From NCBI RefSeq assembly GCF_030388665.1, contig NZ_CP128846.1:2232001-2296000 (forward strand): DNA of 64,000 bases. The letters run 5' to 3'. The notes under the pieces are model-generated. The model ran no database searches, had not been told where the DNA came from, and saw only the letters and a list, made by a program, of their open reading frames with translations. Shown here piece by piece: positions 18,773 to 64,000 of this stretch (the first letter of the stretch is position 1; each line of letters starts with the position of its first letter). This DNA comes from Streptomyces flavofungini. Its GTDB lineage: Bacteria; Actinomycetota; Actinomycetes; Streptomycetales; Streptomycetaceae. Both the position numbers and the translations under genes were made by a program.

Positions 18773-19486
18773 ATGACTCCTGCCCTGACGGCACCCCCTG
18801 CCCAGACTGCGAAAGCCGCCACCGCGGCGGCACCGGCTCACACACCGGTCCCGGCACCAGGACCAGCGGTACGGGAATCCGCACCCGCGGCCGCCGCCCG
18901 TCCCGGCCCCACCGCGCCCACCCACCCCCGGACCCGCCGCACCGACGCCGCCGACGAACCCGTCACGCGGCTCGCCCTCGCCGCGCGGGACGGCGACCCC
19001 GAGGCCGTCGAGCGTTTCGTGCGGGCGCTGCACCGGGACGTCCTGCGCTACGTCGCCCACCTCAGCGCCGACCCGCAGGCCGCCGACGACCTCGCGCAGG
19101 ACACGTTCCTGCGGGCGCTCGGCAGTCTGCACCGGTTCGAGGGGCGCTCCTCGGCGCGTACCTGGCTGCTCTCGATCGCGCGGCGCACCGTCGTCGACAG
19201 CCTGCGGCACGCGGCCGCCCGGCCCCGGCTCTCGGACCGCGACGACTGGCAGGCCGCGGCGGAGCAGGCGCAGCCGCGCGGGCTTCCCGGTTTCGACGAC
19301 GGCATCGCGCTGGCCGAACTGCTCGACGGCATACCGGCCGAGCGGCGCGAGGCGTTCGTCCTCACCCAGCTCCTCCAGCAGCCGTACGCGGAGGCGGCCG
19401 CCGCCATCGGCTGCCCCGTCGGCACGGTCCGCTCCCGGGTGGCCCGGGCGCGGGCCACCCTCATCGAGGCCCTCGCCGCGGCCTGA
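18773..19486 (+). CDS. ECF-type RNA polymerase sigma factor, SigC-like (237 aa)
   Basis: After a 60-residue Ala/Pro-rich extension comes a standard two-domain ECF sigma factor. Region 2 spans LALAARDGDPEAVERFV to SARTWLLSIARRTVVDSLRH, with the -10 recognition block DDLAQDTFLRAL. Region 4 is IPAERREAFVLTQLL, PYAEAAAAIGCPVGTVRSRVARAR. Wording such as YVAHLSADPQAADDLAQDTFLRALGS, FEGRSSARTWLL and VLTQLLQQPYAEAAAAIGCPVGTVRSRVARAR closely recalls Mycobacterium SigC (compared from memory). No anti-sigma gene follows. SigC in mycobacteria is linked to copper acquisition; here a Met/His-rich membrane protein lies directly upstream, consistent with such a role. AAAGGA stands 9 nt before the ATG. A hairpin follows the stop by 66 nt. 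Confidence 0.88.
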   Translation: MTPALTAPPAQTAKAATAAAPAHTPVPAPGPAVRESAPAAAARPGPTAPTHPRTRRTDAADEPVTRLALAARDGDPEAVERFVRALHRDVLRYVAHLSADPQAADDLAQDTFLRALGSLHRFEGRSSARTWLLSIARRTVVDSLRHAAARPRLSDRDDWQAAAEQAQPRGLPGFDDGIALAELLDGIPAERREAFVLTQLLQQPYAEAAAAIGCPVGTVRSRVARARATLIEALAAA

Positions 19487-21742: not shown

Positions 21743-21886
21743 TACGCCCCCGGTTCCCCTCCGGTCCCGCCCGTCGCCGTCCCCCGTCCCCCGCCCGCCG
21801 AGGCCGCCGATGCCGCCGGTCGCGCGCCGCCCGCCCCTGGTGGCAGCTCTCCCTAGAACACCGCTTGACCTTCAGTGAGGAATGGC

Positions 21887-36201: not shown

Positions 36202-42729
<6,528 letters not shown>

Positions 42730-42746
42730 GGAACGGGACCCACATC

Positions 42747-43517
42747 ATGAGTCGCAACAAATGGATTCGTACGTTCCATGCGAAGCCCGACGCCAAGGCC
42801 CGCCTGGTGTGCTTCCCGCACGCCGGCGGTCCCTCGATCGCGTTCACCGCGCTGTCGGCGGCGCTGCCCGCCGACGTCGAGCTGCTCGCCGTGCAGTACC
42901 CGGGGCGGCAGGACCGCAGGGCGGAGCCGTTCGCCGAGGACGTGACGGCGCTCGCCACGGGCATCGTGGACGCCCTCGCCGACTTCGACGACCGGCCGCT
43001 GTTCCTGCTCGGGCACAGCTTCGGCTCGCTCGTGGCCTTCGAGTCGGCCCGTCTCCTGCAGGAGCGGACCGGCCTGGCCCGCCTGTTCGCGTCGGCGGCG
43101 TGGCCGCCCTCGGCGGACTGGCGCGCGCACGCCGACGGAGCGCACTCCGACGAGGAGATCCTCGGCCACATCCGGTGGCTCGGCGGCGTGCCGGACATCA
43201 TCCTCAACGACCCCGAGATGGTCGCCGAGATGATCCGTCTGATGCGCGGCGACCAGGAGGCCCTCGGCCGCTACCGGTCCAAGGACGGTGCCGCGATCAC
43301 GGCGCCCCTCACGGTCCTGCTCGCGCGGGACGACCCGAAGAACACGGCCGAGCAGATGGCCGACTGGGAGCGGCACACCACGGGCGAGTACCGCCTGGAG
43401 GAGATTCCCGGCGGCCACTTCGCCCTCACCGAGCCCGACCCGGCGGTGGTCCCGCTGCTCACCCGCGTCATCCGTGCTGACCTGGCGCGGGCGGCCGGAG
43501 AGGCGGGCGGCGCATGA
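42747..43517 (+). CDS. type II (editing) thioesterase (256 aa)
   Basis: This is an alpha/beta hydrolase of the PKS/NRPS external thioesterase family. It has an N-terminal RLVCFPHAGG, YPGRQDR, the nucleophile elbow FLLGHSFGS (Ser91), and a C-terminal LEEIPGGHFAL with the catalytic His. It removes wrong or stalled acyl groups from carrier proteins. It lies 17 nt after the fully reducing PKS, and its stop overlaps the next ATG (ATGA), so it belongs to the PKS transcript. A role in clearing chains stalled at the module with a defective AT is conceivable, but this is inference. Confidence 0.92.
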   Translation: MSRNKWIRTFHAKPDAKARLVCFPHAGGPSIAFTALSAALPADVELLAVQYPGRQDRRAEPFAEDVTALATGIVDALADFDDRPLFLLGHSFGSLVAFESARLLQERTGLARLFASAAWPPSADWRAHADGAHSDEEILGHIRWLGGVPDIILNDPEMVAEMIRLMRGDQEALGRYRSKDGAAITAPLTVLLARDDPKNTAEQMADWERHTTGEYRLEEIPGGHFALTEPDPAVVPLLTRVIRADLARAAGEAGGA

Positions 43518-44713
43518 GCGAGCAGACCCCGCAGGCGGGGACGCCCCGGCCGCCCCGGGCCGAGATGGTCCGGCAGATCTACCTGGCCGGGATCTCCGGG
43601 CAGAAGCCGAAGCTGTCCACGGACCTGACGACGCTGGAGGATGCGGCGCGCGTGGTCCTGGAGCCGCACGCGCACGCCTACATAGCGGGCGACGCGGGCA
43701 CCGGCACGACCGGCCACGTCAACCGCGAGGCGTTCGAGCGCTGGCGGCTGCTGCCGCGGATGTGGAAGGGCGTCAGCGAGCGGGACATGTCGGTGACCCT
43801 GTTCGGCCGGCGCCTGGACGCGCCGGTGCTGCTCGCGCCGGTGGCCGCGCAGACGGTGGCGCACCCCGAGGGCGAGCTGGCCTCGGTCCGCGCCGCCGCC
43901 GAGGTCGGCCTGCCGTTCGTCCTCTCGTCCTTCTCCTCGCACTCCATGGAGGACGTGGCGAAGGCGGCCGGGAGCGAGCCGCGCTGGTACCAGCTGTACT
44001 GGCCGAACGACCCGGAGGTGGCCGAGTCCCTGGTCCGCCGGGTCGCCCCGGCCGGGTACTCGGCGATCGTGGTCACGGTGGACAACCCCACCTTCGGCTA
44101 CCGGCCCTGCGACATGGACACCGCGTACATCCCGTTCGTGCACGGCCAGGGCATCGCCAACTTCACCAGCGACCCGGCGTTCCAGGCCCAGCTGCCCGCG
44201 GGCGGCGGGGCGATGGCGGCCGTCGGGCACTGGGCGAAGATCTCGGGCAACCCGACGCTCACCTGGGACGACCTGCCGCGGCTGCGGTCGTGGACGGACC
44301 TGCCCATCCTCATCAAGGGCGTCCAGCACCCGGACGACGCCCGCAAGGCGCTCGCGTCCGGCGCCGACGGCGTCGTGGTCTCCAACCACGGCGGCCGGCA
44401 GCTGGACGGCGGTGTGGCCGCGCTCGACGCGCTGCCCGCGGTGCGCGCGGCCCTCGGTCCCGACGTCCCGGTCCTGATGGACTCCGGGGTCCGCACCGGC
44501 ACGGACGTCGTCAAGGCGCTCGCGCTGGGCGCGGACGCGATCCTGTTCGGCAGGCCGTACCTGTACGGTCTCGCCCTCGACGGGCAGGCTGGCGTGGAGC
44601 ACGTCCTGCGGTGTCTGCTCGCCGACCTGGACCTGGCGATGACCCTCACCGGGAGCAGGACCCTCGCGGACATCACGCGGGACCTGGTGGTCCCGTCGGG
44701 CCCGCTCGCGTAG
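43514..44713 (+). CDS. FMN-dependent 2-hydroxy-acid oxidase / lactate 2-monooxygenase-like protein (399 aa)
   Basis: This is a TIM-barrel flavoenzyme: YIAGDAGTGTTGHVN, LLAPVAAQTVAHPEGE, FVLSSFSSHSMEDVA, WYQLYWPND, the catalytic LIKGVQHPDDARKA lysine block, VVSNHGGRQLDGG with the active His-Gly-Gly-Arg, and FMN-phosphate motifs LMDSGVRTGTDV and LFGRPYLYGLAL. The family oxidises L-2-hydroxy acids to 2-oxo acids. GRPYLYGLAL...GV is closest in wording to lactate 2-monooxygenases. Within this unit it may oxidise a 2-hydroxyacyl group or make a building block; no substrate can be fixed. A hydroxymandelate-oxidase role for hydroxyphenylglycine supply is not supported by neighbours or by the A-domain codes. 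It starts inside the thioesterase stop and is the last gene of the plus-strand unit. Confidence 0.85.
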   Translation: MSEQTPQAGTPRPPRAEMVRQIYLAGISGQKPKLSTDLTTLEDAARVVLEPHAHAYIAGDAGTGTTGHVNREAFERWRLLPRMWKGVSERDMSVTLFGRRLDAPVLLAPVAAQTVAHPEGELASVRAAAEVGLPFVLSSFSSHSMEDVAKAAGSEPRWYQLYWPNDPEVAESLVRRVAPAGYSAIVVTVDNPTFGYRPCDMDTAYIPFVHGQGIANFTSDPAFQAQLPAGGGAMAAVGHWAKISGNPTLTWDDLPRLRSWTDLPILIKGVQHPDDARKALASGADGVVVSNHGGRQLDGGVAALDALPAVRAALGPDVPVLMDSGVRTGTDVVKALALGADAILFGRPYLYGLALDGQAGVEHVLRCLLADLDLAMTLTGSRTLADITRDLVVPSGPLA

Positions 44714-44891: not shown

Positions 44892-47800
44892 CTACTCGCT
44901 GTCGAGGTGACGGCTGAGGATCCGGCAGATCTCCGCCGCGGGCCGGGGCAGGTACATCCCCATGTGCGTGGAGTGGATGTCGTGCTCCTCCACCGTTCCG
45001 TCGATGTACGCGGCCCACTGCGGGGCGTACGTCTCGTCGGGGTTCAGCGTCGCGTTGAAGAACACGGCGTCGCCGCGGTACTTCGGCTGCGTGTACTCCA
45101 TCATCATGTCGGTGTGCCGGACGGCGATGGCGGACGCGTTCTTCACGAGCGAGTTCCGCTCACCGCCCTCAGCCCCGTCGGCGGCGTCGCTCTCCGGGCC
45201 CGTGTGCGGGATGTACCCGGCGAGCACGTCCTCCACCTCGGCCATCTCCAGGGACGTGTTGTTCCGCGCGAACCACTCCGCGGGCACGCAGTCGAGGAGG
45301 CCGAGGAGCGCCACCTCGTGGCCGCGCGCCTGGAGTTCGCCCGCGAGGGCGTGCGCCAGGGTGCCGCCGATGGACAGGCCGACGAGTCGGAAGGGGCCTT
45401 CCGGCTGTACGGCGAGGATCTGCTCCAGGTAGTCCGCGACCATCTCGTCGATGGAGCCCGGCAGTTCGGAGCCGTCGAAGCCCCGCGCCTGGATGCCGTA
45501 CACGGGCCGGTCGCCGAGCTGCGTGGCGAAGCCGAGGTAGACCCAGGACAGGCCGACGCCGGGGTGGATGAACCACAGGGGTCCGCCGTCGCCGTCGGTC
45601 TTCATCGGGAGCACCACACCGAACGGGTCGGTGAAGCTGAACGACTCCCTGCCCGAGGTCAGGCAGTCGGCCATGTCCGCGACCGTGGAGTACTGGAACA
45701 CGACCCGCATCGGTATCTCGACACCGAGGACCGTGCGGATGCGGCTGACGAGCCGGGTCGCGAGCAGCGAGTGGCCGCCGACGGTGAAGAAGTCGTCGTC
45801 GATGCCGACCCGCTCCAGGCCGAGGACCTCCGCGAACAGGCCGCAGAGGACTTCCTCCTGCGGAGTGCGCGGGGCGCGGTACTCGACCCCCGTGAACTCG
45901 GGCTCGGGCAGCGCCTTGCGGTCCAGCTTGCCGTTCGGGGCCAGCGGAAGGCGCTCCAGGACCACGAACGCCGACGGCACCATGAACTCGGGCAGCTTCC
46001 CGGCGACGAACTCCCGCAGCGCCGTGACGTCGAACGTGTCGACGTCCTGCGCCCCGGCCGGGACGACGTACGCCACCAGGCGCTTGTCGGCCGTGCCGGT
46101 GCCCCGGGCCACGACCACGCCCTGCGCCACGTCCGGGTGCGCGGTGAGCACCGCCTCGACCTCGCCGGGCTCGATGCGGAAGCCCCGCACCTTGACCTGC
46201 GCGTCGTCGCGACCGACGTACTCCAGCTGGCCGTCCGCGTTCCACCGCGCCAGGTCACCGGTGCGGTACATCCGCGCACCCGCAGGGCCGAACGGGTCGG
46301 CCACGAACCGGTCGGCGGTCAGCTCGGCGCGCGCGAAGTAGCCGCGGCTGACGGCTCCCGCCACGTACAGCTCGCCGACGACGCCCTCGGGTGCGGGGGC
46401 GAGGGTCGGGCCGAGGATGTACGCCCGCATGTTGCCGAGCGGGGTGCCGACGGGCGCGCTGCCCGTGCCGTCCCACTCGTCCTCCGCGGGCAGCGCCCAC
46501 GTGGTCGCGTAGAACGACTCGGTCTGGCCGTAGGCGTTCACCACCCGGACACCGGGGATGGCCTCGCGCACCCGCGCCACGAGGGCGGCGGGCAGCGCCT
46601 CACCGGCGAACACCACGGACTCGGCGCCGATGTCGCCGGTGACCTGGTCGAGGAGTTCGGCGAAGACCGACGGGACCGTGGAGATCACGCCGCCCGTCCA
46701 GCCGTTGCGCTCGCCGATGACCAGGACGTCCCTGACCACTTCGAGGGTGCCGCCGGTCGACAGGGTCGTGAAGGTCTCGAAGACCGACACGTCGAAGTTG
46801 ACCGAGGTGCCCGCGAGCATCCGCGAGCCCGCGCCGCCGACCCGCTCGACGAGGCGCGTGATGCCGTTGACCACGTTGGCGTGCGTGACCATGACGCCCT
46901 TCGGCGTGCCGGTCGAACCGGAGGTGTACATCACGTACGCCACGTTGTCCGGCCGCAGGGGCGCCACCCGGTCCTGGTCGCGGACCTCGGTGTCGCCCTG
47001 CTTCGGCTCCAGGTCGAGGTCGCCGACGAACAGCCTCGGCACGTCGTTGTCCGGCAGCACGCCGACGGTGTCCGCGTCGGTGAGCAGCAGCCTCGGCCGC
47101 GCGTCGGACAGGATGTAATCCAGACGCGAACTCGGGTACTTCGGGTCGATCGGCAGATACGCCGCACCCGCCTTCAGCACACCCAGCAGGCCCACGATCA
47201 GGTCCGCCGAGCGCGGCAGCGCCAGGCCCACGACCGTCTCCGGACCCACCTCACGCCGGATCAGCTCCCGCGCCAACAGATCGGCACGCGCGTCCAGTTC
47301 ACGGTACGTCCACGACGTGTCGCCGAAGACCACCGCGACCGCGTCCGGCGTCCGCGCGACCTGCTCCTCGAACAGCCCCGGCACGGTGAGTCCGGGCGTC
47401 TCGGCGGCCGTGTCGTTGTACGTGAGGAGCAGCCGCTCCCGCTCCCCCGGCTCCAGCACGTCGACGTCCTTGACGGGAGTCTCCGGGTCGGCCGCGATCT
47501 GCTGGAGCACCCGGCCGAGGCGGCCCGCGATGCCCTTCACCACGTCCTTGTCGTACATGGTGTCCTGGTACTGCAGGCCCATGCGCAGGTGCGGCGAGGC
47601 GTCGGCGCCCACGATCAGCGGGTAGTGCGTACCGCTGGACGCGCGCAGGCCCGTCACCGCGATGCCCGCCGTGGCGTTGGCGTCGCTCATGCCCGCGTGG
47701 TCGACCGGGAACGACTCGAACACCACGATGGTGTCGAAGAGCGTGCTGAGCCCGGTCGCCTGCTGGATGTCCGACAGGCCGTAGTGGTGGTGGTCCAGGA

Positions 47801-50800
47801 GTGCGGCCTGGCGGTCCTGGAGGCCGGTGAGGAGCTGGGCCAGGGTCTGGCCGGGCTCGGCGGTCACGCGGACGGGCAGGGTGTTGATGAAGAGGCCGAC
47901 CATGGTGTCGACGCCGGTGACCGACGGGGGCCGGCCGGAGACGGTGGCGCCGAACGTGACGTCCTGGCGTCCCGTCAACTGGCCGAGTGCGAGGGCCCAG
48001 GCGCCCTGGACGAGGGTGTTGAGGGTGATCCCGAGCTCCGAGGCGCGGCGCGACAGGGTGCGGGCGTCCTCCGTCGGCAGCGGCACCTCGACCATGTCCA
48101 GGCCGCCCTGCTCCTCCGAGGCACCGGGAGCCAGCATCGTCGGCTCCTCGACCCCGTCCAGCTCGCGCGCCCAGGCGCGGGCGGCCTCGCCCCGGTCCTG
48201 CCGGTCGAGCCAGGCGAGGAACTCGCGGTAGCTGCGGACGCGGGGCAGGTCGGCGGGGTCGCCGTGGGAGCCGTAGAGGCGAAGGAGGTCCTGGATGAGC
48301 ATGGGGAAGGACCAGCCGTCGTACAGCACGTGGTGGGCGCTGAAGACGAGTTCGGAGAGGTTGTCGTCCATCGTGACCAGGCACATCCGCAGCAGGGGCG
48401 CGGTGGCCGGGTCGAAGTGGGTGACCTGGTCCTCGGCGAGCAGCTTCTCGAACGCCTCCTCGCGCTCGGCCTGGGGCAGCGTGCTCAGGTCGGCCTCGCT
48501 CCAGGGGAGTTCGACGTCGTCCACGATGAGCTGGACCAGCTCGCCCGCGGAGTCGTGCACGAAGGCGGCCCGCAGGTTCGCGTACCGGTCGAGCAGCGCC
48601 TGCCCCGCCGCGCGCATGCGGTGCGGGTCGACCTGCCCGGACAGGTGCATCACGAGCTGGATGTGGTACGCGTCGCGGGCTTCGGCCGGGCCCTCGGTGT
48701 CACTGGCGCCGAGCATGCTGTGGAACAGCAGGCCCGACTGCATCGTGGTGAGCGGCCAGATGTCCGAGACGCCCGGGTACTTCTTCTCCCAGGCCTCGAT
48801 GTCGGACTGCTCCACGCCGACCAGCGGCACGTCGGACGGCGTGAGGCCGCCCGCGTCCGGGGTGGCGGCGTGGCGGGTGAGGCCGTCCAGGGCCTCGCAC
48901 CACAGGTCCGCCAGGCGCTGCACCTCGGCGCGGGACAGGACACCGGTCGGGAAGCCGACGCTCGCGGTGAGCTCGGGGCCCTGTGTGCCGTCCGTGACGT
49001 ACGCGGCGAAGTCGACCGTGGCGAGGGCGGGCATCTGCGCGTTGAGGTCGGCGATGAGCGCGTCGGTGTCGGGGGCGATGCTCCAGCCCAGGCCGCGCAG
49101 TTCCTCGGGCATGTCGTCGGCGGAGAACCGGCCCAGGTAGTTGAACGCGATCTGCCCCGTCGAACGCCCCTCAAGGACACGGGAGGTGTCCGGGTTGAGG
49201 TAGCGCAGCAGACCGAAGCCGATGCCCTTGTCCGGCACGGCCAGGAGCTGCTCCTTGACCGCCTTGACCACCGAACCGGCGGCCCGGCCGCCCGCGAACG
49301 CCTCGGCCACGTCGTGCCCCGCCACGTCCAGCCGGACCGGGAACATGCTCGTGAACCAGCCCAGCGTGCGCGACACGTCCGCACCCGGAGCGATGTACTC
49401 CTCACGGCCGTGGCCCTCCAGCCGGATCAGCGTGGAGGACTCCGCCACGCCCCGCTCCTCGCGCCAGCGCGACACCGCCAGGGCGAGCGCGGCGAGCAGG
49501 CCGTCGTTGACACCACCGTGGAACGCGGCCGGAACGGTCGTCAGAAGCGACTCCGTCACCGCCACCGGCAGCTTGACGGACACGGTCTCCACCGTGGCGG
49601 TGACGTCCACCGCCGGGTCGAGCGGACGCGAGCCGAGCACCGGGTCGTCGCCGTCCAGCATGCTTTCCCACAGGGGGAGTTCGGCGGTGCGGGTCTCGCT
49701 GTGCGCCTCGTCCGTCAGGGCGTGCGACCAGCGGCGCAGCGAGGTCGCCACCGGTGCGAGCTCCGGCGTCCGGCCCGCCTCGACGTGCTCCCAGGCCGCG
49801 GCCAGGTCCGGCACCAGGATGCGCCACGACACGCCGTCCACCACCAGGTGGTGCAGCACCACGATCAGCCGACCGGCCGTGTCCGCACCCGCGGTGTCGA
49901 ACCACACGAACTGCGCCATCACCCCCGCCGCCGGATTCAACCGGCCCGTGGCGGCGTCGAGTTCGGCGGCGGCGAGGCGCTGCCAGGCCTGCGCCGACCA
50001 GTCGCCGTCGCACTCCACGCGGTGCACCAGCGACGCCACGTCGACGGTGCCGGGCGCGGTGACCTCAAGGCCGCCCTCGCCCTCGGTGAGGAAGCGCGAA
50101 CGCAGCACGTCGTGGTGGTCGACGACGGCGCTCAGGGTCGCGAAGAGGCCCGCCTCGTCGATGCCCGCAGGCAGGTCCAGGACCGTCGACATGGAGAACC
50201 GGTCGGTGCTCTCGCCGAGTTCGGTCGTCATGTAGCGGGCCACGGGCAGGAGCGGCATCCAGCCGACGCCGCCGCCCTCCAGCTCCGCCAGGACCGCGCC
50301 CGCGCCCGCGAGCCGGTTCTCGACGGCCGCGACGGCGAGTTCGGCGACCGTGCGGCACTCGAAGATCTGCCGCGGGGTGATCTCGACGCCCTGCGCCTTG
50401 GCGCGGGACACCACCTGGATGGAGCGGATGGAGTCGCCGCCGACGGCGAAGAAGTCGTCGTCGACACCGACCCGGCCGAGGCCGAGCACCTCCGCGTACA
50501 CCCCGGCGAGGACCTTCTCCTCGGCGGTGCGGGGCGCCCGGTACTCCCCCGCCGTGAACTCCGGCTCGGGCAGGGCCTTGCGGTCCAGCTTGCCGTTGGG
50601 GGCCAGCGGCAGGCGGTCGAGGACCACGAACACCGCGGGCACCATGAACTCGGGCAGGCGGCCGGAGGCGAACTTGCGCAGTTCCTCCACCGAGACTCCG
50701 GCGGTCAGGTCGAGGTCGGCGTTGACGTCCTCCACCTGCTCACCGGCGGGCACCACATAGCCGACGAGCTGCTTGCTGCCGCGACCGTCCTTGACGACCA

Positions 50801-53800
50801 CGACGGCCTGGGCGACGCCCGGGTGCTCGGTGAGCGCGGCCTCGACCTCGCCGGGCTCGATGCGGATGCCGCGCACCTTGACCTGCGCGTCGTCGCGGCC
50901 GACGTACTCCAGCTGGCCGCCCGCGTTCCACCGCGCCAGGTCGCCCGTGCGGTACATCCGCGCACCCGCAGGGCCGAACGGGTCGGCCACGAACCGGTCG
51001 GCGGTCAGGTCGGCGCGGCCGAAGTAGCCGCGCGCCACATTGCCCGCGACGTACAGCTCACCCACGACACCCACCGGGACGGGCGCGAGGCCCGAACCGA
51101 GGACGTAGGCGCGCATGTTGCCGAGCGGAGCACCGATCGGGGCACTGCTCGCACCGGTCCACTCCTGGTCGGCGGGCAGCGCGAACGTCGTGGCGTAGAA
51201 CGACTCCGTCTGGCCGTAGGCGTTCACCACCCGGACACCCGGGATGGCCTCGCGGACCCGCTCCACGAGCGAGGCGGGCAGCGCCTCACCGGCGAACACC
51301 ACGGAGTCGACTTCGAGTTCGCCGTCGACCTGCTCCAGGAGCTCGGCGAAGACCGACGGGACCGTGGAGACGACACCGCCCGTCCAGCCGCCGCGCTCAC
51401 CGATGACGAGCACGTCGCGGGCCACCTCGACGGTGCCGCCCTGGGTCAGGGTCGTGAAGGTCTCGAAGACCGACACGTCGAAGTTGACCGAGGTCGCGGC
51501 GAGCATCCGCGTGGCGGAGTCGATGCCCACGGACGCGGCGAGGCGGGTGATGCCGTTGACCACGTTGTGGTGGGTGATCGCGACACCCTTCGGGGTGCCG
51601 GTCGAGCCGGAGGTGTACATCACGTACGCCACGTTGTCCGGCTTGAGCGCGGCCCTTCGATCCTGGTCGCGGACCTCGGTGTCGCCCTGCTTCGGCTCCA
51701 GGTCGAGGTCGCCGACGAACAGCCTCGGCACGTCGTTGTCCGGCAGGACCCCGACGGTGTCCGCGTCGGTGAGCAGCAGCCTCGGCCGCGCGTCGGACAG
51801 GATGTAATCCAGACGCGAACTCGGGTACTTCGGGTCGATCGGCAGATAGGCGCCGCCCGCCTTCAGCACACCCAGCAGGCCCACGATCAGGTCCGCCGAG
51901 CGCGGCAGCGCCAGGCCCACGACCGTCTCCGGACCCACCTCACGCCGGATCAGCTCCCGCGCCAACAGATCGGCACGCGCGTCCAGTTCACGGTACGTCC
52001 ACGACGTGTCGCCGAAGACCACCGCGACCGCGTCCGGCGTCCGCGCGACCTGCTCCTCGAACAGCCCGGGGATCGTGAGGTCCGGCGTCGGCTGCGCGGT
52101 GTCGTTGAAGCCGCGCAGGACGAGGTCCCGCTCGGCGGGCTCGACCAGCTCGACGGCGCCGACGCGCTGCGCGGGGTCGGCCGTGAGGAGGCCCACGACG
52201 CGGATGAACCGGTCGGTGATCTCCTGGGCGGTGGCGTGGTCGAACAGGTCGGTGGCGTACTCCAGGTGGCCGACGACGCCGTAGCCGGGGATGTCGGCCA
52301 TGTTGAAGAACAGGTCGAACTTGGCGCTCTCGTTGCGGATCCGCTCGAACCGCACGTCGAGGCCGGGCAGCGCGAAGTCGTTCCGGTTGAAGTTCTGCCA
52401 GGCGAACATCACCTGGAACAGCGGTGAGTACGCCGTGGAGCGCTCCGGGTTCAGGACCTCCACCAGGCGCTCGAACGGCACGTCCTGGTTGTCGTAGGCG
52501 GCCAGGGACTTGTCGCGGGCCTGGTCGAGCAGGTCCTCGAAGGTGGGGTTGCCCGACAGGTCGGCGCGGAGCACCCAGGTGTTGACGAAGAATCCGACCA
52601 GGTCCGCGAGGAGTTCGTCGGTGCGGTTGGCGATCGGCGCGCCGACCGTGATGTCGTCGCCGCCGCCGAGGCCGTGCAGGAGCACCGTCAGGGCGGACTG
52701 GAGCACCATCGAGGCGGTGGCGCCGCGCCTGCGGGCCAGTTCCTCGACGGCGTCCATCACGTCCCGGTCGAGGGAGAACTCGACGGTGGCGCCGCGGTGG
52801 CTCGCGGCCGGGGGGCGGGGCCGGTCGGTGGGCAGGCGGAGCGGCTGGGGCACGCCCGCGAGCTCCTCGCGCCAGTAGTCGACCTGCGCGGACTGCACGC
52901 TGTCGGGGTCGTCCTCGGCGCCGAGCAGCTCGCGCTGCCACAGCGTGTAGTCCACGTACTGCACGGGCAGTTCGGGCCACTCGGGGGCCGCGCCCGCGAG
53001 CCGGGCGGTGTAGGCCGCGGCGAGGTCGCGGGAGAGCGGGCCCATGGACACGCCGTCGCTGACGATGTGGTGGAAGAGCAGAAGCAGGACGAACTCGTCC
53101 TCGCCGCAGCGGAACACGGTGGCCCGCGTCGGGACCTCGCCCGCCAGGTCGAAGCTGTATCCGGCGGCCTCGGCCAGGGCGTCGTCGAGGGCGTCGGGGG
53201 CGACGTCGACGACGGGCACGTCGATGTGCACGTCGGCGGCGGGCAGCACCTTCTGGAAGGGCACGCCCTCGCTGTCGTCGATGATCAGCGTGCGCAGGCT
53301 CTCGTGCCGCGTGACCACGTCGTTGACGGCGGCCTCGAAAGCGGCGGCGTCCAGGGTGCCGGTCAGGCGCAGCGGGAACGGCGTGTTGTACGTCGCCGAG
53401 GGGCCCTCGAAGCGGTCGATGAACCACAGGCGGCGCTGCGCGTACGACAGCGGCACGAACTCGGGGCGGGTCTCGGCCCGGCGCAGCTGCGCGCGGACGC
53501 TGCCGCCGCCGGTCAGATGCTCGACGAGTTCGGCGACGGTCGGCGAGGCGAAGACGACGCGGATCGGGATCTCGACGTCGAGGATGGTGCGGATGCGGCT
53601 GACGAGCCGGGTGGCGAGCAGCGAGTGGCCGCCGACGGTGAAGAAGTTGTCGTCGATGCCGACCCTGTCCAGGCCGAGCACCTCCGCGAACAGGCCGCAC
53701 AGGGCCTCTTCCTGAGGGGTGCGCGGGGCGCGGTACTCCGCGCCGGTGAACTCGGGCTCGGGCAGCGCCCTGCGGTCCAGCTTGCCGTTCGGGGCCAGCG

Positions 53801-56800
53801 GAAGGCGCTCCAGGACCACGAACGCCGACGGCACCATGAACTCGGGCAGCTTCCCGGCGACGAACTCCCGCAGCGCCGTGACGTCGAACGTGTCGACGTC
53901 CTGCGCCCCGGCCGGGACGACGTACGCCACCAGTCGCTTGTCGGCCGTGCCGGTGCCCCGGGCCACGACCACGCCCTGCGCCACCTGCGGGTGCGCGGTG
54001 AGCGCGGCCTCGACCTCGCCGGGCTCGATGCGGAAGCCCCGCACCTTGACCTGCGCGTCGTCGCGACCGACGTACTCCAGCTGGCCGTCCGCGTTCCAGC
54101 GGGCCAGGTCGCCCGTGCGGTACATCCGCGCACCCGCAGGGCCGTAGGGGTCGGCCACGAAGCGGTCCGCGGTCAGGTCGGCGCGGCCGAAGTAACCGCG
54201 TGCCACATTGCCGGCGATGTACAGCTCGCCCACGACACCCACCGGGACGGGCGCGAGGCCCGAACCGAGGACGTAGGCGCGCATGTTGCCGAGCGGAGCG
54301 CCGATGGGGGCGCTGCCCGTGCCGTCCCACTCGTCCTCCGCGGGCAGCGCCCACGTGGTCGCGTAGAACGACTCCGTCTGGCCGTAGGCGTTCACCACCC
54401 GGACACCCGGGATGGCCTCGCGGACCCGCTCCACGAGCGAGGCGGGCAGCGCCTCACCGGCGAACACCACGGAGTCCACGGCGAGTTCGCCGGTGACCTG
54501 CTCCAGGAGCTCGGCGAAGACCGACGGGACCGTGGAGACGACACCGCCCGTCCAGCCGCCGCGCTCACCGATGACCAGGACGTCGCGGGCGACCTCCAGG
54601 GTGCCGCCCTGGGACAGGGTGGTGAAGGCTTCGAAGACCGACACGTCGAAGTTGACCGAGGTGCCCGCGAGGACGCGTGTCGTGGCGTCGATGCCCACGG
54701 ACGCGGCGAGGCGGGTCACGCCGTTCACCACGTTGTGGTGGGTGATCGCCACACCCTTCGGGGTGCCGGTCGAGCCGGAGGTGTACATCACGTACGCGAT
54801 GTGGTCCGGCCTGAGCACGGCCCCGCGGTCGGCGTCCGTCAGCGGGGCGTCGGCGGTCGCGGACGTGAGGTCCACGTCGCCGAGGAACAGGCGCGGGATG
54901 TCCGCCTCGGGGAGGACGCCGACGGTGTCGGCGTCGGTGAGGAGCAGCTTCGGCGCCGCGCTGGACAGGATGTGGTCCAGACGCGAGCTCGGGTACTTCG
55001 GGTCGATCGGCAGATAGGCGCCGCCCGCCTTCAGGACCGCGAGCAGCCCCGTGATCAGGTCGGCGGAGCGCGGCAGGGCCAGGCCCACGACCGTCTCCGG
55101 GCCGACCTCGCGGGCGATGAGCTCCCGTGCGAGGCGGTCGGCGCGGGCGTTCAGCTCGGCGTACGTCAGCGAGGTGTCGCCGTGCACGAGCGCGACCGCG
55201 TCCGGGGTCGCCGCGACCTGCCGCTCGAACAGGCCGGGGATGGTGAGCGCGGGCGTCTCGGCGGCCGTGGCGTTCAGGCCGCGCAGGACGTGCTCGCGCT
55301 CGTCGGCCTCCAGGATGTCGACGTGGCCGGAGGGGATCCGCGGGTCCTCGACGAGCTGGAGCAGGACGCGGTGGAAGCGGGCCGCGACGGCCTCGACGTC
55401 CGCGCGCTCGAAGAGGTGGTGCTGGTACTGCAGGCCGAGGCGCAGGTGCGGCTCGGCGTCGGCGGAGACGATCAGCGGGTAGTGGGTGCCGCTGAGCGGG
55501 CTGATGCCGGTGACCTCGATGCCCGCCGCCGAGTAGGCGTCGGTGATGCCGACGGAGTCGACGGGGTAGGAGTCGAAGACGACGATCGTGTCGAACAGCG
55601 AGGTCAGACCGGCCGCGTTCTGGATGTCGCTGAGACCGAAGTGCTGGTGGTCCAGGAGCGCGCCCTGCCGGTTCTGCAGCGCGGTCAGGACGTCGGCGAG
55701 GGACTCGCGCGGCGCGCACTCCACCCGCACCGGCAGGGTGTTGATGAACAGGCCGACCATGTGGTCCACGCCCGGCACGACCGGCGGACGGCCCGAGACG
55801 GTGGCGCCGAACACGACGTCCCTGCGGCCGGTCAGCTCCGCGAGGAGCAGGCCCCAGGCGCCCTGCACGACGGTGTTCATGGTGATGCCGAGCTCGGCGG
55901 CGCGGCGGGCGAGCTCACGGGCGGACTCGGCGCTCAGCGGCACGTCGACCTGACCGATGCCGCGGGGCTCCGCGCCGGGGCGGGCGCTGGGGGCGAGCAG
56001 GGTGGGCTCGTCGACCCCGGCCAGCTCCTCGGCCCACACGCGGGTGTCCTCGGCGCGGTCCTGCTGGTCGAGCCAGACCAGGAAGTCGCGGTAGCCGCGG
56101 ACCCGGGACAGCTCGGAGGCGTCGCCGTCGGAGCCGTACAGGCGAAGGAGGTCCTGGAGCAGCAGCGGCACGGACCAGCCGTCGAACAGGACGTGGTTGG
56201 CGGTGAACACCAGCTCCGCGCGGTCCTCGCCGAGGGTGACCAGGGTCATCCGCAGCATCGGCGGGGTGACGGGGTCGAAGTGCTTGGCGTGGTCGTCGGC
56301 GAGGAGCTTCTTCAGGGCGGCGTCGCGCTCGGCGTCGCCGAGGGAGCTGTAGTCGAACTCCAGCCACGGCAGCGGGACCTCGTCGAGGACGAGCTGGACC
56401 TGGTTGCCCTCGGTGTCCGTGACGAACGCGGTGCGCAGGCTCGCGTACCGGTCGAGCAGGGCCTGTCCGGCCGCGCGCATGCGGGCGGGCTCGACCTTGC
56501 CGGACAGGTGGAAGACGAGCTGCATCTGGTACGCGTCGAAGGAGGCGTCCGAGAGCATCGTGTGGAACAGCAGGCCCGACTGGGCGGCGGTGAGCGGCCA
56601 GACGTCGGACACGCTCGGGTAGCGGCGCTCCCACAGCTCGATGTCGGCCTGCGTGGTCGTCACCAGCGGGACGTCGGACGGCGTGAGGCCGCCCGCGCCG
56701 GGCTGCGACACGTGCTGGGCGAGGCCTTCGAGGGCCTGGATCCACAGGTCGGCGAGGTCCCGCACGTCGGCGGCGGAGAGCACGCCGACGGGGAAGCCGA

Positions 56801-59800
56801 TGCGGGCGTTGAGCTGCGGGCCCTCCTCGGAGTCCAGGACGAGGGCGTTGACGTCGAACACCGACAGGGCGGGCATGTCCGCGTCCAGGTCGGCGAGGAT
56901 GTCGGCGGTGCCCTCGGCCTGGCTGAAGCCGAGGCCGCGCAGGTGGTCGGGCATGTCCGTGGACGTGGAGAAGCGGCCGAGGTAGTTGAAGGCGATCTGG
57001 CCGGTGGAGTAGCGGCGCAGGATCTCCGCGGTCTCCGGGTTGAGGTAGCGCAGCAGGCCGTAGCCGAGGCCCTTGTCGGGGATGGCGAGTGCCTGCTCCT
57101 TGACGGCCTTGACCGTGGCACCGGCGGCGGCGCCGCCCGCGAACGCCTCGTCGACGTCGATGCCGCCGAGGTCGAGGCGCAGCGGGAACATGCTGGTGAA
57201 CCAGCCCATGGTGCGGGACAGGTCGGCGCCCGGCACCGCGTACTCCTCGCGGCCGTGGCCCTCCAGGCGCAGCAGCACGGTCGACTCGTCGACACCGCGG
57301 GCGCGGCGCCAGCGGGTGACGGCGAGGGCGAGGGCGGCGAGCAGGCCGTCGTTGACGCCGCCGCGGAAGGCGGCGGGCAGCGTGGTCAGGAGCTGCTCGG
57401 TGACGGGCACCGGCACCTGCACGACGACGTGCTCGACGGTGGCGACGGTGTCGGTGGCCGGGTCGAGGTGGCGGCTGCCGAGCACCGGGTCGGGCCCGGC
57501 GACGACGGACTTCCACAGCTCCAGCTCGGCGGTGCGCTCCGGCGTCGCGGCCTCGTCGACCAGGGCGTGCGCCCAGCGGCGCACGGAGGTGGAGACGGGG
57601 TCGAGCGCGGGGGTCCTCCCGGCCTTGATCTGCTCCCAGGCGGCGGCGAGGTCGGGAAGCAGGACGCGCCAGGACACGCCGTCGACGGCGAAGTGGTGCA
57701 GGACGACGTGCAGGCGGCCGGGCTTGTCGGGGCCCGCGTCGAACCACACGAACCGCACCATGCTGCCGGCGGCGGCGTCCAGGCGGGCGGTGGCGGCGTC
57801 GAGTTCGGCGAAGGCGAGGTCGCGCCACGCCTGGTCCCACTGGCCGTCACAGGTGACGCGGTGGACGAGCGAGGCGATGTCCACGGTGCCCGCGGGGGCG
57901 ACCTCCAGGCCGCCGTCGCCGTCGGTGAGCAGGCGCGAGCGCAGGATGTCGTGGTGGTCGACGACGGCGCCGAGGGTGGCGACGAGGCCGGCCTCGTCGA
58001 TGCCGACGGGCAGGTCGAGGACCATCGACATGGAGAAGCGGTCGCTGCCGCCGCCCAGTTCCTTCAGGAAGTGCCCGGCGGGAAGCAGTGGCATCCAGCC
58101 GACGCCGCCGCCCTCCAGCTCCTCCAGGACGGTGGCCTGTCCCCCGGCCGCCGCGACCTCGGCGAGCTCGGCCACGGTGCGGCACTCGAAGATCTGCCGG
58201 GGGCTGACCTCGACGCCCTGGGCGCGGGCCCGCGAGACGACCTGGATGGAGCGGATGGAGTCGCCGCCGACGGCGAAGAAGTCGTCGTCGATGCCGACCC
58301 GGTCCAGGCCGAGGACCTCGGCGTAGACGCCGGTGAGGACCTCCTCGGTGGGGGTGCGCGGGGCGCGGTACTGGCCGCCGGTGAACTCCGGCTCGGGCAG
58401 GGCCTTGCGGTCCAGCTTGCCGTTCGGGGCGAGCGGGAGGCGGTCCAGCATCAGGAAGACGGACGGGACCATGAACTCGGGCAGGCGCGCGGAGACGAAG
58501 CGGCGCAGCTCGCGCGAGGAGACGACCATGGTCAGGTCGACGTCGAGCTCGCCGAGGCTGTCGACGTCGCCGGAGCCCACGCCGTCGTCGGAGCCCACGG
58601 GCACGACGTAGCCGACGAGCTGCTTGCTGCCGCGGCTCTGGTGGACGGTCACGACGGCCTGGGCGACGCCCGGGTGGGCGGTGAGCGCGGCCTCGATCTC
58701 GCCGGGTTCGATGCGGAAGCCGCGGACCTTGACCTGCGCGTCGCCGCGGCCGACGTACTCCAGGCGGCCGTCGGCGTTCCAGCGGGCGAGGTCGCCGGTG
58801 CGGTACATGCGGGACCCGGCCGGGCCGTAGGGGTCGGCGACGAAGCGGTCCGCGGTGAGGTCGGGGCGGCCGTGGTAGCCGCGGCCGACGACGCCCGCGA
58901 CGTAGAGCTCGCCCGCGACGCCGACGGGGGCGGGCTCCAGGCCGGGGCCGAGGACGTAGGTGCGGACGTTGCCGAGGGGGCTGCCGATGGGGGCGCTGCT
59001 GGTGCCGTGCCACTGGTCGGTGTCGGACACGGCGAAGGTGGTGGCGTAGAAGGTCTCGCTCTGGCCGTAGGCGTTGACGACGCGGACGCCGGGGATGACC
59101 TCGCGCACGCGCTGCACGAGGGCCGCGGGCAGCGCCTCGCCGGCGAAGACGACGGCGTCGACGTCGATCTTGCCGTCGACCTGGTCGAGGAGTTCGGCGA
59201 AGACCGAGGGGACGGTGGAGACGACGCCGCCGGTCCAGCCGCCGCGCTCGCCGATGACGAGGACGTCGCGGACCACTTCGAGGGTGCCCCCGGTGGTCAG
59301 CGTGGTGAAGGTCTCGAAGACCGACACGTCGAAGTTGATGGAGGTGCCCGCGAGCACCCGCGAACCGGCCTTGACGCCCACGGCGGACGCGAGGCCCGTG
59401 ACGTCGTTGACGACGTTGCCGTGGGTGACGGCGACGCCCTTGGGCGTGCCGGTGGAGCCGGAGGTGTACATCACGTACGCGACGTGGTCGGGGCCGAGCG
59501 GCGCGGTCCGGTCGGCGTCGGTCAGCTCCGCGTCGGCGGCGGTGACGGCGTCGAGGTCGACGTCGCCGAGGAGGAGCCGGGGCGCGGCGCCGCCCGGGCC
59601 CTCGGGGTTCTCGGGCAGCACGCCGACGGTGTCGGCGTCGGTGAGGATCAGGTGCGGCCTGGCGTCGGAGAGGATGAAGTCGAGGCGGGTGCTCGGGTAC
59701 TTGGGGTCGATCGGCAGGTAGGCGCCGCCCGCCTTGAGGATGCCGAGCATGCCGACGACGAGGTCCGCGGAGCGCGGCAGGCACAGGCCGACCACGCTCT

Positions 59801-61334
59801 CCGGGCCGACGCCGCGGCCGATGAGGTCACGGGCGAGCCGGTTCGCGCGGGCGTTCAGCTCCGCGTACGTCAGCTCCGTGTCCTCGTGCACGACAGCGAC
59901 GGCGTCCGGGGTGGCCGCCGCCTGCTTCTCGAAGGCGCCGGGCACGGTGAGCTCGGGCGTGGCCGTCGCGGTGTCGTTGAACTGGCCGAGGACGAGCTCG
60001 CGTTCGCCGGGCTGGAGGACGTCGACGCGGGTGACCGGGGCGGCGGGGCTCTCGACGAGCTGGCGCACGACGCGGACGTAGCGCTCGGTGATGGCCTCGG
60101 CGGTGCGCCGGTCGAACAGCTCGGTGGCGTACTCCAGGTACACCAGCATCGACTGCTTGGCCGGGTCGTGGAAGTAGTTGAACTCCAGGTCGAACTTGGC
60201 CGTCGTGGTCGACAGCATCTCCAGGCGCGTGGTCAGGCCCGGCAGTTCGAGGGCGGTGCCGACCTCGGTCTCCCAGGTGAACATGACCTGGAAGAGCGGG
60301 TGGTAGGCGGTGGAGCGCTCGGGGTTGAGGATCTCCACCAGGCGCTCGAACGGCGCGTCCTGGTTGTCGTACGCCGCGAGCGCCTTGTCCTGGACCTGGG
60401 CGAGCAGCCGCTCGAACGTCGGGGCGCCGGAGAGGTCGCCGCGCAGCACCCAGGTGTTGACGAAGAAGCCGATGAGGTCGGTGAGGTCGTCGTCGGTGCG
60501 GCCCGCGATGGTGGAGCCGAGCGCGATGTCCTCACCGGCGCCGAGGTGCTGGAGGGTGACCATCAGGGCGGCCTGCATGACCATCGGCACGGTCACGTCG
60601 CGCTCGCGCGCGAGCCGTTCGACCTTCGCGACCAGGTCGGGGTCGACGTGCAGGCTGACGCCGTCGCCCTGGTGGCTGGCGACGGGCGGGCGCGGGCGGT
60701 CGGCGGGCAGTTGCAGCGGCTGCGGGACACCGGCCAGCTCGCCGCGCCAGTACTCGACCTGCGCGGCGAGGACGCTCTCGGGGTCGTTCTCGTCGCCGAG
60801 CAGCTCGCGCTGCCACAGCGTGTAGTCCACGTACTGGACCGGGAGTTCCTCCCAGTCCGGCGCGGCGCCGGCGAGCCGGGCGCGGTAGGCGGTGGCGAGG
60901 TCGCGGGCCAGCGGGCCCATGGACTCGCCGTCGCTCGCGATGTGGTGGATGAGGAGCACGAGGACGTGCTCCCGCTCACCGGACTTGAGCAGGGTCGGGC
61001 GCAGGGGTATCTCGGTGGCGAGGTCGAGGACGTACTCGGCCTCCTTGGCGATGGCGGCTTCGAGTGCCTCGGGGGCCACCTCGACGAGCGGCATCTCCAG
61101 GCGGGCGTCGGCGAGCGCGAGGACCTCCTGCGCCGGGACGCCGTCGGCGTTCTCGACGATGAGGGTGCGCAGGCTCTCGTGCCGCTCCACCACGTCGCGT
61201 ACGGCCGCCTCCAGGGCGGCGGTGTCGAGGTCGCCGCTGAAGCGGAGCAGGAAGGGAAGGTTGTACGTCGCCGAGGGGCCCTCGAAGCGGCTGATGAACC
61301 ACAACCGTCGCTGCGCGAAAGACAACGGGATCAT
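44892..61334 (-). CDS. nonribosomal peptide synthetase, four modules: C-A-T-E, C-A-T, C-A-T-E, C-A-T-TE (5480 aa)
   Basis: Module a: C (1-430, HHIASDG near 130), A (460-960), T (Ser1026, GGDSI), E (1080-1530, HHFAVDG near 1213). Module b: C (1575-2010, NHVLFDG, first His replaced by Asn), A (2035-2510), T (Ser2571, GGHSL). Module c: C (2625-3060, HHIVSDG near 2755), A (3085-3570), T (Ser3635, GGDSI), E (3690-4140, HHLVVDG near 3828). Module d: C (4190-4630, HHVLYDG), A (4650-5130), T (Ser5189), TE (5250-5480, Ser5321 in GLSIGG). T-domain wording agrees with E placement. All four A domains read FDVSVFE, VSTVPS or ISTVPS, VVFAG, NAYGQ(S/T)E, SFYATT or TFYATT, giving DVFTVAAYAK by GrsA alignment. 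ATG at 61334 is chosen with AGGAG about 10 nt upstream; a GTG 12 nt earlier is possible. It releases the finished peptide. No MbtH gene is seen in the window. Confidence 0.95.
45917..46079. repeat. 163-bp block identical to 53771-53933 (A domains of modules d and b)
   Basis: I compared the two stretches base by base and found no difference. They encode the C-terminal A subdomain around NGKLDR ([13 protein letters not shown]) and its upstream helix. Identity continues with few changes on both sides. Confidence 0.85.
46972..47380. repeat. about 408-bp block almost identical to 51661-52068 (A domains of modules d and c)
   Basis: Direct comparison shows only about six differences, clustered at two sites (near 47058 and 47160). 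The block covers the N-terminal A subdomain from [14 protein letters not shown] to the linker before YVMYTSG. Confidence 0.85.
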
Positions 61335-61335
61335 T

Positions 61336-64000
61336 TTACTGTCCACTCCTGTTCATCCTGCGCAGCTTGGGTCGGCGCGACGCCGTGGCGTTCTGCACCG
61401 TGCGCGATAGTTCGGCGATGCTGTGCGATTCGAAGACCGCCCGGATCGGCACACTGACTCCGAGTGCCTTGCCAATGCGGCTGGTGAGCCGCGTGGCCAA
61501 CAGGGAGTTCCCGCCCAGGTCGAAGAAGTCGTCGTCGATCCCGACCCGCTCCACGCCGAGGACCTCGGCGAACAGCGTGCAGAGCGTCTCTTCCTTCTCG
61601 TTGCGCGGCGCGCGGTAGGCCGCGCCCGCGAACTCCGGCTCGGGCAGGGCCCTGCGGTCCAGCTTTCCGTTCGGGGCCAGCGGGAAGCGGTCGAGGACCA
61701 CGACCGCGGCGGGCACCATGAACTCGGGCAGGCGGCCCATGACGAAGTCGCGCAGCTCGGTCATGTCGACCGTGCTCCTCGCGCCGTCCGTCTCGGTGGG
61801 CACGACATAGCCCACGAGCCGCTTGCCGACGCTCTCGCCGCCGTCGTGGACGACGACCGCGGCCTGTGCGATGGCGGGGAAGTCGGTGAGGGCGGCCTCG
61901 ACCTCGCCGGGCTCGATGCGGAAGCCCCGCACCTTGACCTGCGCGTCACCCCGGCCGACGTACTCCAGTTGCCCGTCGGCGTTCCAGCGGGCCAGGTCGC
62001 CGGTGCGGTACATCCGCGCGCCCGCCGGGCCGTAGGGGTCGGCCACGAACCGCTCGGCGGTCAGGACGGCCCTGCCGTAGTAGCCGCGGCCGATGTTCCC
62101 CGCCACGTAGAGCTCGCCGACCACGCCCGCGGGGACCGGGGTGAGGCCGGGGCCGAGGACGTAGGTGCGCATGTTGCCGATGGGCGTGCCGATGGGGGCG
62201 CTGGCCGCGCCGGTCCAGGGCTCGTCGGCGGCGAGGGCGAAGGTGGTGGCGTAGAAGCTCTCGCTCTGGCCGTAGGCGTTGACGACCCTCACGCCGGGCA
62301 TGGCCTCGCGGATGCGGCCCACCAGCGCGGCGGGCAGCGCCTCACCGGCGAACACCAGCGTCTCGACCTTGGTCTTGGGGGCGATCTGGTCGAGCAGTTC
62401 GTTGAAGACGGACGGCACGGTGCTGATGGCGCTGCCCGACCAGCTGTCGCGCTCGGCGAGGACGAGGACGTCCCTGACGACCTCGACGGTGCCGCCGGTG
62501 CAGAGCGTCGTGAAGGTCTCGAAGACCGACACGTCGAAGTTCACGGAGGTGCCCGCGAGCATCCGGGAGCCGGGGCCGCCCGCGACCCGCCCCGCGAGGC
62601 GCGTCACGCCGTTGACGACGTTGGCGTGCGTGATGACGACGCCCTTGGGGGTGCCCGTGGAACCGGACGTGTACATCACGTACGCGATGCCGTCGGGGCG
62701 CAGCGGCGCGGGCCGGTCGGCGTCGGTGACGGGCCCGTCCGGCGCGTCGTCGAGGGCCAGCTCGTCGAGGCGCACGTGCGGCACGTCGGAGGCGGGCAGC
62801 ACCCCGGTCGTCGCCGAGTCGGTGAGCACGAACCGCGGGGCGGCCTCGGTGAGGATCGAACCGAGGCGCGCGCTCGGGTACTTGGGGTCGATCGGCAGGT
62901 ATCCGGCGCCGGACTTGAGGATGCCGAGCATGCCGACGACGAGGTCCGCGGAGCGCGGCAGGGCGAGACCCACGACCGTCTCGGGGCCCGCGCCCCGCTT
63001 GATCAGTTCGCGGGCGAGGCGGTTGGCGCGGGTGTCGAGCTCCGCGTACGTGAGCTGCCGGTCGTCGAAGACGACGGCGACCGCGTCCGGGGTCTTCGCC
63101 GCCTGCTCCTCGAAGAAGCCGGGGATCGTCAGCTCGGGCGTCGGCTCGGCGGTGTCGTTGAGCCCGACGAGCAGCCGCTCGCGCTCGGCGGGGTCGAGGA
63201 CGTCGACGGCGCGGACGGCCTGGTGCGGGTCGGCGGCGACGGTGGCGAGGATCCGGCCGTAGCGCGCGGCGAGGGTGTCCGCCTCGTCCTTGTCGAACAC
63301 GTCCTGCTGGTACTGGACGTTCAGGCGCGGGTACTCCCCGTCCGGGTAGACGAAGACGGTCACCGGGTAGTGGCTCGCGGTGAACGCGCGGATGCCGGTG
63401 ATGGTGATGCCGGCGGCCGCGCTGACCTCGCTGATCGCGCCGCGGTCCAGCGGGAAGGACTCGAACCCGACGAGGGTGTCGAACAGGGTCTTGAGTCCGG
63501 TGGTCTTGTGGATCTCGGTGAGGCCGTAGTGGTGGTGGTCCAGGAGGGCGGCCTGCCGGTCCTGGAGTCCGGTGAGCAGGTCGGCGAGGGTGTCACCGGG
63601 GGCGCACTTGACGCGTACGGGCAGGGTGTTGAGGAACATGCCGACGATGGAGTCGACCCCCGCGAGCGCGGGCGGACGCCCGGCGACCGTGGACGAGAGC
63701 ACCACGTCCTGACGCCCCGTCAACTGGCCGAGGAGCAGGCCCCAGGCGCCCTGCACCAGGGTGTTCAGGGTGACGCCGAGGTCGGCGGCGCGCCGGGTCA
63801 GCTCGGTGGCTTCGGCCGGGGTCAGCGGTACGTCGACCTGCGCGATGCCGGAGCTGTGGCTTCCGGTTTCCGCGCCGGGCGCGAGGAGGGTCGGTTCGTC
63901 GACGCCGTCCAGCTCGTGCCGCCAGGCCTCGGCGGAGACCTCGGGGTCCTGCTGGGCCAGCCAGGCGAGGTAGTCGCGGTACGTCCGCGCGGGCGGCAGG
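61336..64000 (-). CDS. nonribosomal peptide synthetase, partial (C-terminal module C-A-T; 5' end outside window)
   Basis: The frame is open to the window edge, so only the last module or so is visible. It has the later part of a C domain ([41 protein letters not shown]), a full A domain (about 63130-61650, with [60 protein letters not shown]) and a T domain ([11 protein letters not shown], Ser at 61504-61506). The A code reads DVFTVAAYAK, the same as in the next gene. The C domain resembles those that follow E domains in the downstream NRPS, implying that a module ending in E precedes it. The stop TAA is one base from the ATG of the next NRPS, so the two are translationally coupled and the chain passes from this T to the next C. 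Confidence 0.93.

Follow-up and report, generated by a model that had tools for sequence, protein, structure and literature searches.

A six-module nonribosomal peptide synthetase with five predicted piperazate modules in Streptomyces flavofungini, related to the lunaemycin line

Which amino acid is activated by an assembly line whose adenylation domains nearly all look alike, and what peptide could such a line make? The question is raised by a nonribosomal peptide synthetase (NRPS) at the right-hand end of a 64,000-nucleotide stretch of the Streptomyces flavofungini genome (hereafter the window; C1:2232001–2296000 of a 9.36 Mb genome, C1 being contig NZ_CP128846.1). Comparison with characterized systems strongly supports piperazic acid (piperazate, Piz) as the substrate of all five adenylation (A) domains within the window, and the line probably assembles a hexapeptide containing five Piz, whatever its remaining residue X. 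The contig was followed to C1:2345000, and coordinates above 64000 refer to this extended window. Two proteins, gA and gB, make up the line, with condensation (C), A, thiolation (T), epimerization (E) and thioesterase (TE) domains; the whole gB gene, whose start codon was chosen by us, runs from 61336 to about 67941 and crosses the right edge of the window.

44892–61346 (open frame 44892–61352), minus strand: gA, four modules (3–6), C-A-T-E-C-A-T-C-A-T-E-C-A-T-TE; homolog of lunaemycin Lun22
61336–64000, minus strand: window part of gB, modules 1–2, A1-T-E-C-A-T; homolog of lunaemycin Lun23
62077–63114, minus strand: A domain of module 2 (gB-A2), Piz signature; the counterpart position is degenerate in lunaemycin
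58872–59933, minus strand: A domain of module 3, Piz signature
56700–58070, minus strand: E domain of module 3
54189–55229, minus strand: A domain of module 4, Piz signature
51021–52061, minus strand: A domain of module 5, Piz signature
48858–50231, minus strand: E domain of module 5
46335–47372, minus strand: A domain of module 6, Piz signature
44895–45701, minus strand: terminal thioesterase with GLSIGG motif, presumed cyclase

The sixth A domain of the line, A1, lies beyond the window (extended positions 66802–67848) and carries the code DVGVAAGVA.

Pocket codes were read from a MAFFT alignment with GrsA at nine pocket positions, the lysine of the A10 motif being added as the tenth letter; the pocket letters of the GrsA reference fragment were checked. 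All five A domains of modules 2–6 present D-V-F-(S/T)-V-A-A-Y-A, and the final K is found in the ten-residue A10 motif, so that the single shared code claimed by the first-pass annotation is confirmed. Its exact form, DVFTVAAYAK, holds overall, with T at letter 4 representing one of two legitimate readings. The underlying residues, (V/I)-S-T-V-P-S in all five domains, lie beside a gap relative to GrsA, and a one-residue shift of the alignment gives either T or S (S in the MAFFT column). The four Lun22 Piz domains read I-S-T-V-P-S; the lunaemycin paper gives S at this letter for them (PMC9866976), and the diperamycin paper gives T for one Piz domain (PMC10888640). A real S/T difference from lunaemycin at pocket position 4 was rejected as an explanation, the underlying letters being identical.

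The five domains are 68–87% identical pairwise, with 273 of 462 ungapped columns invariant; nine arbitrary columns, taken as independent, would all be invariant with a probability of about 0.009. The identity of the pocket exceeds what shared ancestry alone would give, though not astronomically: common descent accounts for part of it and selection on the pocket probably for the remainder. Across this genome, 37 A domains were extracted from eight NRPS regions, and nine of them carry a Piz-type code, five here and the rest in two other lines.

The most direct evidence for the substrate comes from lunaemycin, since the four Piz domains of Lun22 share the signature of our five domains and the structure of their product is solved. 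Lunaemycin A is cyclo(D-Phe, L-HO-Ile, D-Piz, L-Piz, D-Piz, L-Piz), as established by tandem mass spectrometry and nuclear magnetic resonance (PMC9866976). Published Piz codes include KtzH-A1 DVFSVGPYAK, HmtL-A1 DVFSVAAYAK, PlyF-A1 DVFSVASYAK and PlyG-A1 DVFSIAAYAK (PMC3943440), ArtF-A1 DVFSVASYAK, ArtG-A2 DVFTVAAYAK and DVFSVAAYAK in four modules of Lun22 (PMC9866976), and DVFSVASY and DVFTVAAY for diperamycin modules M6 and M9 (PMC10888640), several of these codes being proposals by their authors. In a tree of 86 A domains, all five fall into a single clade with the Lun22 domains (support 100/99), so that the clustering check proposed at first pass came out in favor of Piz. This Piz clade comprises 45 rows, 43 with a Piz-code label (Lun23 module 2 is so labeled by its last four letters only) and two degenerate domains.

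Co-occurrence with piperazate synthase points the same way. Among 392 genomes of the genus, 50 possess a KtzT homolog (E ≤ 1e-30) and 45 a close relative of gB-A2 (E ≤ 1e-120, four candidates scored per genome); all 45 lie within the 50, and none occurs among the other 342 (hypergeometric p 7e-54, a value that ignores shared ancestry). The stricter cut-off recovers eight of the nine Piz-code domains of our own genome and misses one. The five genomes positive for KtzT and negative for the A domain (G016, G168, G204, G212, G262) have KtzT matches of merely 47–61% identity, and two A-positive genomes show a rather weak match on one side, G217 for KtzT (51%) and G339 for the A domain (54%). An M-x-KLSQE motif is present in all 30 KtzT loci checked from this survey, that of our own genome included.

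The first-pass annotation was right that no piperazate biosynthesis genes lie inside the window, and the search it proposed elsewhere in the genome did find them: ktzI and ktzT stand together 0.86 Mb from the NRPS, in an island about 150 kb from the nearest condensation domain.

C1:1414952–1421811: Piz-supply island with aminotransferase, kinase, ArgJ, MbtH, KtzI-type and KtzT-type genes together
C1:1421167–1421811: KtzT, with KLSQ motif
C1:1419462–1420772: KtzI-type N-hydroxylase (PF13434)
C1:1418963–1419193: MbtH protein

The genes adjoining ktzT also encode an ArgB-like amino-acid kinase, an ArgD-like class III aminotransferase and ArgJ, of which the genome has two copies. KtzT itself carries MFKLSQE, reported as the hallmark motif of piperazate synthases, and is 72% identical to Lun17 over 205 residues; the genome encodes three PF04299 proteins, and the KLSQ motif is seen in this one only. 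Because the Lun22 signature, the common clade, the co-occurrence with KtzT and the presence of ktzI and ktzT all agree, we regard the assignment of piperazate in the first-pass annotation as well founded.

How would such a line operate? We propose that gB and gA form one six-module NRPS of lunaemycin type. The C, E, T and TE motifs are all present, the HHxxxDG motif of module 4 having Asn for its first His. C domains alternate between two groups: modules 2, 4 and 6, whose C domains each follow an E domain, form one (55–64% alike) and modules 3 and 5 the other (63%), against 26–29% between the groups, the pattern expected for DCL versus LCL types. A1 would load residue X, which the E domain of module 1 would convert to the D form; modules 2–6 would each take up free L-piperazic acid that KtzI and KtzT produce from ornithine. 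With the E domains of modules 3 and 5, the peptide would read D-X, L-Piz, D-Piz, L-Piz, D-Piz, L-Piz, and head-to-tail ring closure would fall to the terminal thioesterase. The homo-oligomer of at least five identical residues foreseen at first pass survives as the five Piz, and its purity does not, one further residue entering through A1.

Several points weigh against this proposal: no Piz gene lies within the NRPS cluster; branching inside the Piz clade is partly unresolved, leaving the order of many Piz domains open; and the module 2 of lunaemycin is itself unused, so that we can only infer the use of module 2 here.

Head-to-tail closure is quite likely, given the free amine expected on residue 1 and the cyclic form of lunaemycin. 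The strongest competitor, which we nevertheless consider unlikely, is a hexapeptide released as a linear acid, or tailored by hydroxylation or dehydrogenation of some Piz, instead of a plain ring. JBIR-39 is a linear Piz hexapeptide according to a title cited in PMC7765410, dehydro- and hydroxy-Piz forms occur among the lunaemycins (PMC9866976), and a P450 is encoded in the neighboring gene block. Against these precedents stand the D-configured first residue with a free amine and the terminal thioesterase, both as in cyclic lunaemycin, together with the equal domain order of gA and Lun22, whose thioesterase domains are 62% identical.

The number of Piz residues depends on module 2, which is intact with a Piz code here and degenerate in lunaemycin. 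Its A domain keeps the ten-residue P-loop, the pocket and the later motifs, and the C and T motifs of the module are present. An intact module 2 with Piz code is also found in two relatives with the same five-Piz NRPS, S. lasiicapitis (NZ_BMNG01000003.1) and a further S. flavofungini assembly (NZ_BMVR01000015.1 and two other contigs), whose best gB segments are 83% and 89% identical to ours, respectively. Compared with its S. lasiicapitis counterpart, the module 2 A domain shows 82% identity, versus 55% and 51% with the degenerate ones of Lun23 and Streptomyces sp. NBC_00212, and the other five domains of gB reach 66–76% (Lun23) and 65–76% (NBC_00212). Lun23 module 2 (DVASLAAYAK) was called inactive by its authors, which is their prediction, and the second residue of lunaemycin comes instead from a protein of its own, Lun20 (PMC9866976). 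Two further Lun23 relatives (L222:19821–26564 and L151:1–6456, one of them on a plasmid of NBC_00212) also have a degenerate second module, with the codes EVLNLATGA (NBC_00212) and EPAAVSLPA (NRRL F-2580). The A3 P-loop is altered in all three degenerate domains (TSGYPGGPRG in Lun23 and NBC_00212, ACGSSGGPTG in NRRL F-2580) and A8 is altered in the alignment, while A5 and A7 are still recognizable.

Module 2 could be skipped, or its place filled by another unit as the inactive Lun23 module and Lun20 exemplify, leaving four Piz only. We find this improbable given the retained motifs and the far closer kinship to the S. lasiicapitis domain, and the condensation-domain search found no Lun20-like C-A-T protein near the locus; we hold with good confidence that module 2 is used. 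All three degenerate domains sit in the Piz clade, which branches there as a fan. The most economical history has a common ancestor with a Piz module at this position, which the lunaemycin side lost and for which Lun20 stepped in; since the fan does not show whether the degenerate domains are sisters of ours, a swap of A domains is a possible alternative. The "inactive" lunaemycin module would then seem to be the remnant of a former Piz module, and a concrete example of a module that was lost and had its task taken over in trans.

Immediately beyond gA lies a polyketide synthase (PKS) block, built of ketosynthase (KS), acyltransferase (AT), dehydratase (DH), enoylreductase (ER), ketoreductase (KR) and acyl carrier protein (ACP) domains. 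All of its genes are conserved:

20570–21742, plus strand: cytochrome P450 (PF00067)
21950–36166 (or 21875–36166), plus strand: PKS1, a loading module with the KSQ-like site DAGQASS in place of the KS cysteine site, followed by two DH-KR modules
36202–42729, plus strand: PKS2, docking-KS-AT-DH-ER-KR-ACP
42747–43517, plus strand: type II thioesterase (PF00975)
43514–44713, plus strand: flavin mononucleotide (FMN)-dependent alpha-hydroxy-acid dehydrogenase/oxidase (PF01070), tail to tail with gA, 179 bases between

Both here and in S. lasiicapitis the block converges on gA, tail to tail; on the S. flavofungini contig it adjoins the gA end. The first-pass annotation had envisaged a lipidated peptide, and a PKS-derived acyl chain on the N-terminus is suggested by this adjacency, kept in two relatives, and by the polyketide acyl chains borne by azinothricin-type Piz peptides (PMC3943440). 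Such a lipopeptide is nonetheless very improbable: gB opens with the A domain of module 1, and a whole-genome search for condensation domains found near the locus only those of gA and gB, with no starter C domain and none that would join a polyketide acyl chain to residue 1, unlike azinothricin-type Piz depsipeptide lines. Weaker still is the idea that the substrate of the five domains is neither piperazate nor one of its simple derivatives; codes can mislead, but with a signature common to Lun22, A-positive genomes nested within KtzT-positive ones and published Piz codes matching at 8 to 10 of 10 positions, we give it hardly any weight.

A different role for the PKS block is to make residue X. 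In the tree, A1 pairs with the Phe-type A1 of lunaemycin as its sister, within a six-member clade (100/99). Its pocket has G in place of W239, and the remaining substitutions bring in small or aliphatic residues (the code is DVGVAAGVA here and reads DVGVAAGVG in the two relatives); because of these replacements, the pocket suggests that X has a large side chain, a reading in line with what work on GrsA W239 reportedly found. The PKS order (loader, DH-KR, DH-KR, DH-ER-KR) could yield a 4,6-dienoic acid, which alpha-hydroxylation by the P450, FMN-dependent oxidation to the keto acid and transamination would turn into an amino acid like 2-amino-8-methyl-4,6-nonadienoic acid. We propose tentatively, at somewhat less than even chances, that X is a long-chain alpha-amino acid built by the conserved PKS together with the P450 and the FMN oxidase. 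Against it, no aminotransferase was found in the conserved block, and the genes called at 14241–15533 and 17538–18449 and alternative frames gave no Pfam match. The third AT of PKS1 reads GHGHG and so lacks the serine (GHSQG in S. lasiicapitis), which may reflect a recent lesion or AT activity supplied in trans. The PKS2 dehydratase deviates from HxxxGxxxxP, as in the relatives, and the PKS1 space in the S. flavofungini relative spans 8.6 kb versus 14.2 kb here, reflecting either a shorter gene or a collapsed assembly.

Left of the block, an extracytoplasmic function (ECF) sigma factor (18773–19486, plus strand), with 98–99% identity to its counterparts in the two relatives across 155 compared residues, is either a candidate regulator or a mere neighbor. 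Upstream of gB, a stand-alone A protein, a peptidyl carrier protein (PCP) and a P450 (extended 68709–72072) were considered as part of the line and rejected: in the 20 kb (S. lasiicapitis) and 10 kb (S. flavofungini) upstream of gB, the PCP and P450 have no match and the A protein is 35–37% identical to other A domains. Further on, at extended 74102–79951 and on the other strand, are genes for a methyltransferase, a P450-like protein, an A domain and two thioesterase-like proteins. Since the genes of neither interval were seen in the flanks of the relatives that were compared, both probably belong to a separate small cluster.

The genome holds two other Piz lines. At C1:1817276–1841137, a single six-module protein of 7954 residues (A-T-E-C-A-T followed by four modules and a TE end) has one Piz code, in its second A domain; at C1:8810149–8834358, a pair of proteins with the same two-protein order has the Piz code in three of six A domains, the others reading DAYFWGGTF, DAYVWAGMA and DAYAWVGAA. 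The single remote island may supply Piz to these lines too. Each of the two relatives likewise has one KtzT match, on a different contig from gB. As this genome with its three Piz lines and distant ktzI/ktzT island shows, cluster mining confined to the surroundings of ktzT misses such lines.

How unusual is the line? Among 47 genomes (the 45 A-positive ones and the two relatives), this genome and S. lasiicapitis are the only ones with five Piz matches at a single contiguous locus, a count in which contig breaks may hide other such loci; in the S. flavofungini relative the five codes are spread over two contigs. Among the best matches listed for the 49 other KtzT-positive genomes, no A1 exceeds 67% identity and no further ortholog of the line appears. 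The next highest number is four, in G108 (C1:6983240–7003213 of that genome, with ktzT 119 bases downstream) and G139 (contig C357), where one protein of the same domain order carries four Piz signatures and the preceding protein a Ser-type code, DVWHFSLVD, with no fifth Piz. Already known are Piz modules, lines with four of them and cyclic hexapeptides that contain Piz. As far as our searches go, a line in which five of the six modules are for Piz, shared by three related genomes, is new, and so is the suggested origin of the inactive lunaemycin module; a literature search for a five-piperazate peptide found none, weak evidence of absence as most subscription journals were outside its scope. 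To our knowledge, a run of five neighboring Piz would be denser than any other. Piz peptides are rigid and can be potent, and five near-identical modules in one line offer a natural test bed for module choice. It is appealing, if doubtful in its entirety, that our strain, S. lasiicapitis and the S. flavofungini relative represent a conserved family making a ring of five consecutive alternating Piz and a polyketide-built amino acid, an ancestral form of the lunaemycin line, with a single island feeding three lines.

Among known systems, JBIR-39, whose cluster was proposed in S. violascens (PMC11761653), is possibly related to the four-Piz lines of G108 and G139. Piperazimycins hold 2-amino-8-methyl-4,6-nonadienoic acid beside Piz derivatives (PMC5702503), a residue of the kind that our PKS order would fit; compared as products, they also contain hydroxyacetic acid and alpha-methylserine. 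The incarnatapeptins, named at first pass as an example of piperazate-rich Streptomyces peptides, were set aside as closest relative for lack of their cluster for comparison and on the literature description, a review placing incarnatapeptin with polyketide–nonribosomal peptides, and the nearest characterized system found is lunaemycin instead. Its Lun23/Lun22 pair (S. lunaelactis MM109, plasmid pSLUN1, NZ_CP026305.1) has the same two-protein order, A-T-E-C-A-T then C-A-T-E-C-A-T-C-A-T-E-C-A-T-TE, with four identical Piz signatures in the second protein, and gB is 63% identical to its counterpart over its length. Our line is a variant and not a lunaemycin synthetase, because module 2 is intact and no separate C-A-T protein lies near. 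In addition, A1 is of Phe type there, the distance to ktzT is 5.3 kb (beyond Lun22) there compared with 0.86 Mb here, and the PKS block is absent among the genes listed around Lun22/Lun23. Lunaemycin A inhibits Gram-positive type strains at minimum inhibitory concentrations of 0.12–0.25 µg/mL (PMC9866976), and the product predicted here would have one more Piz than this closest proven relative.

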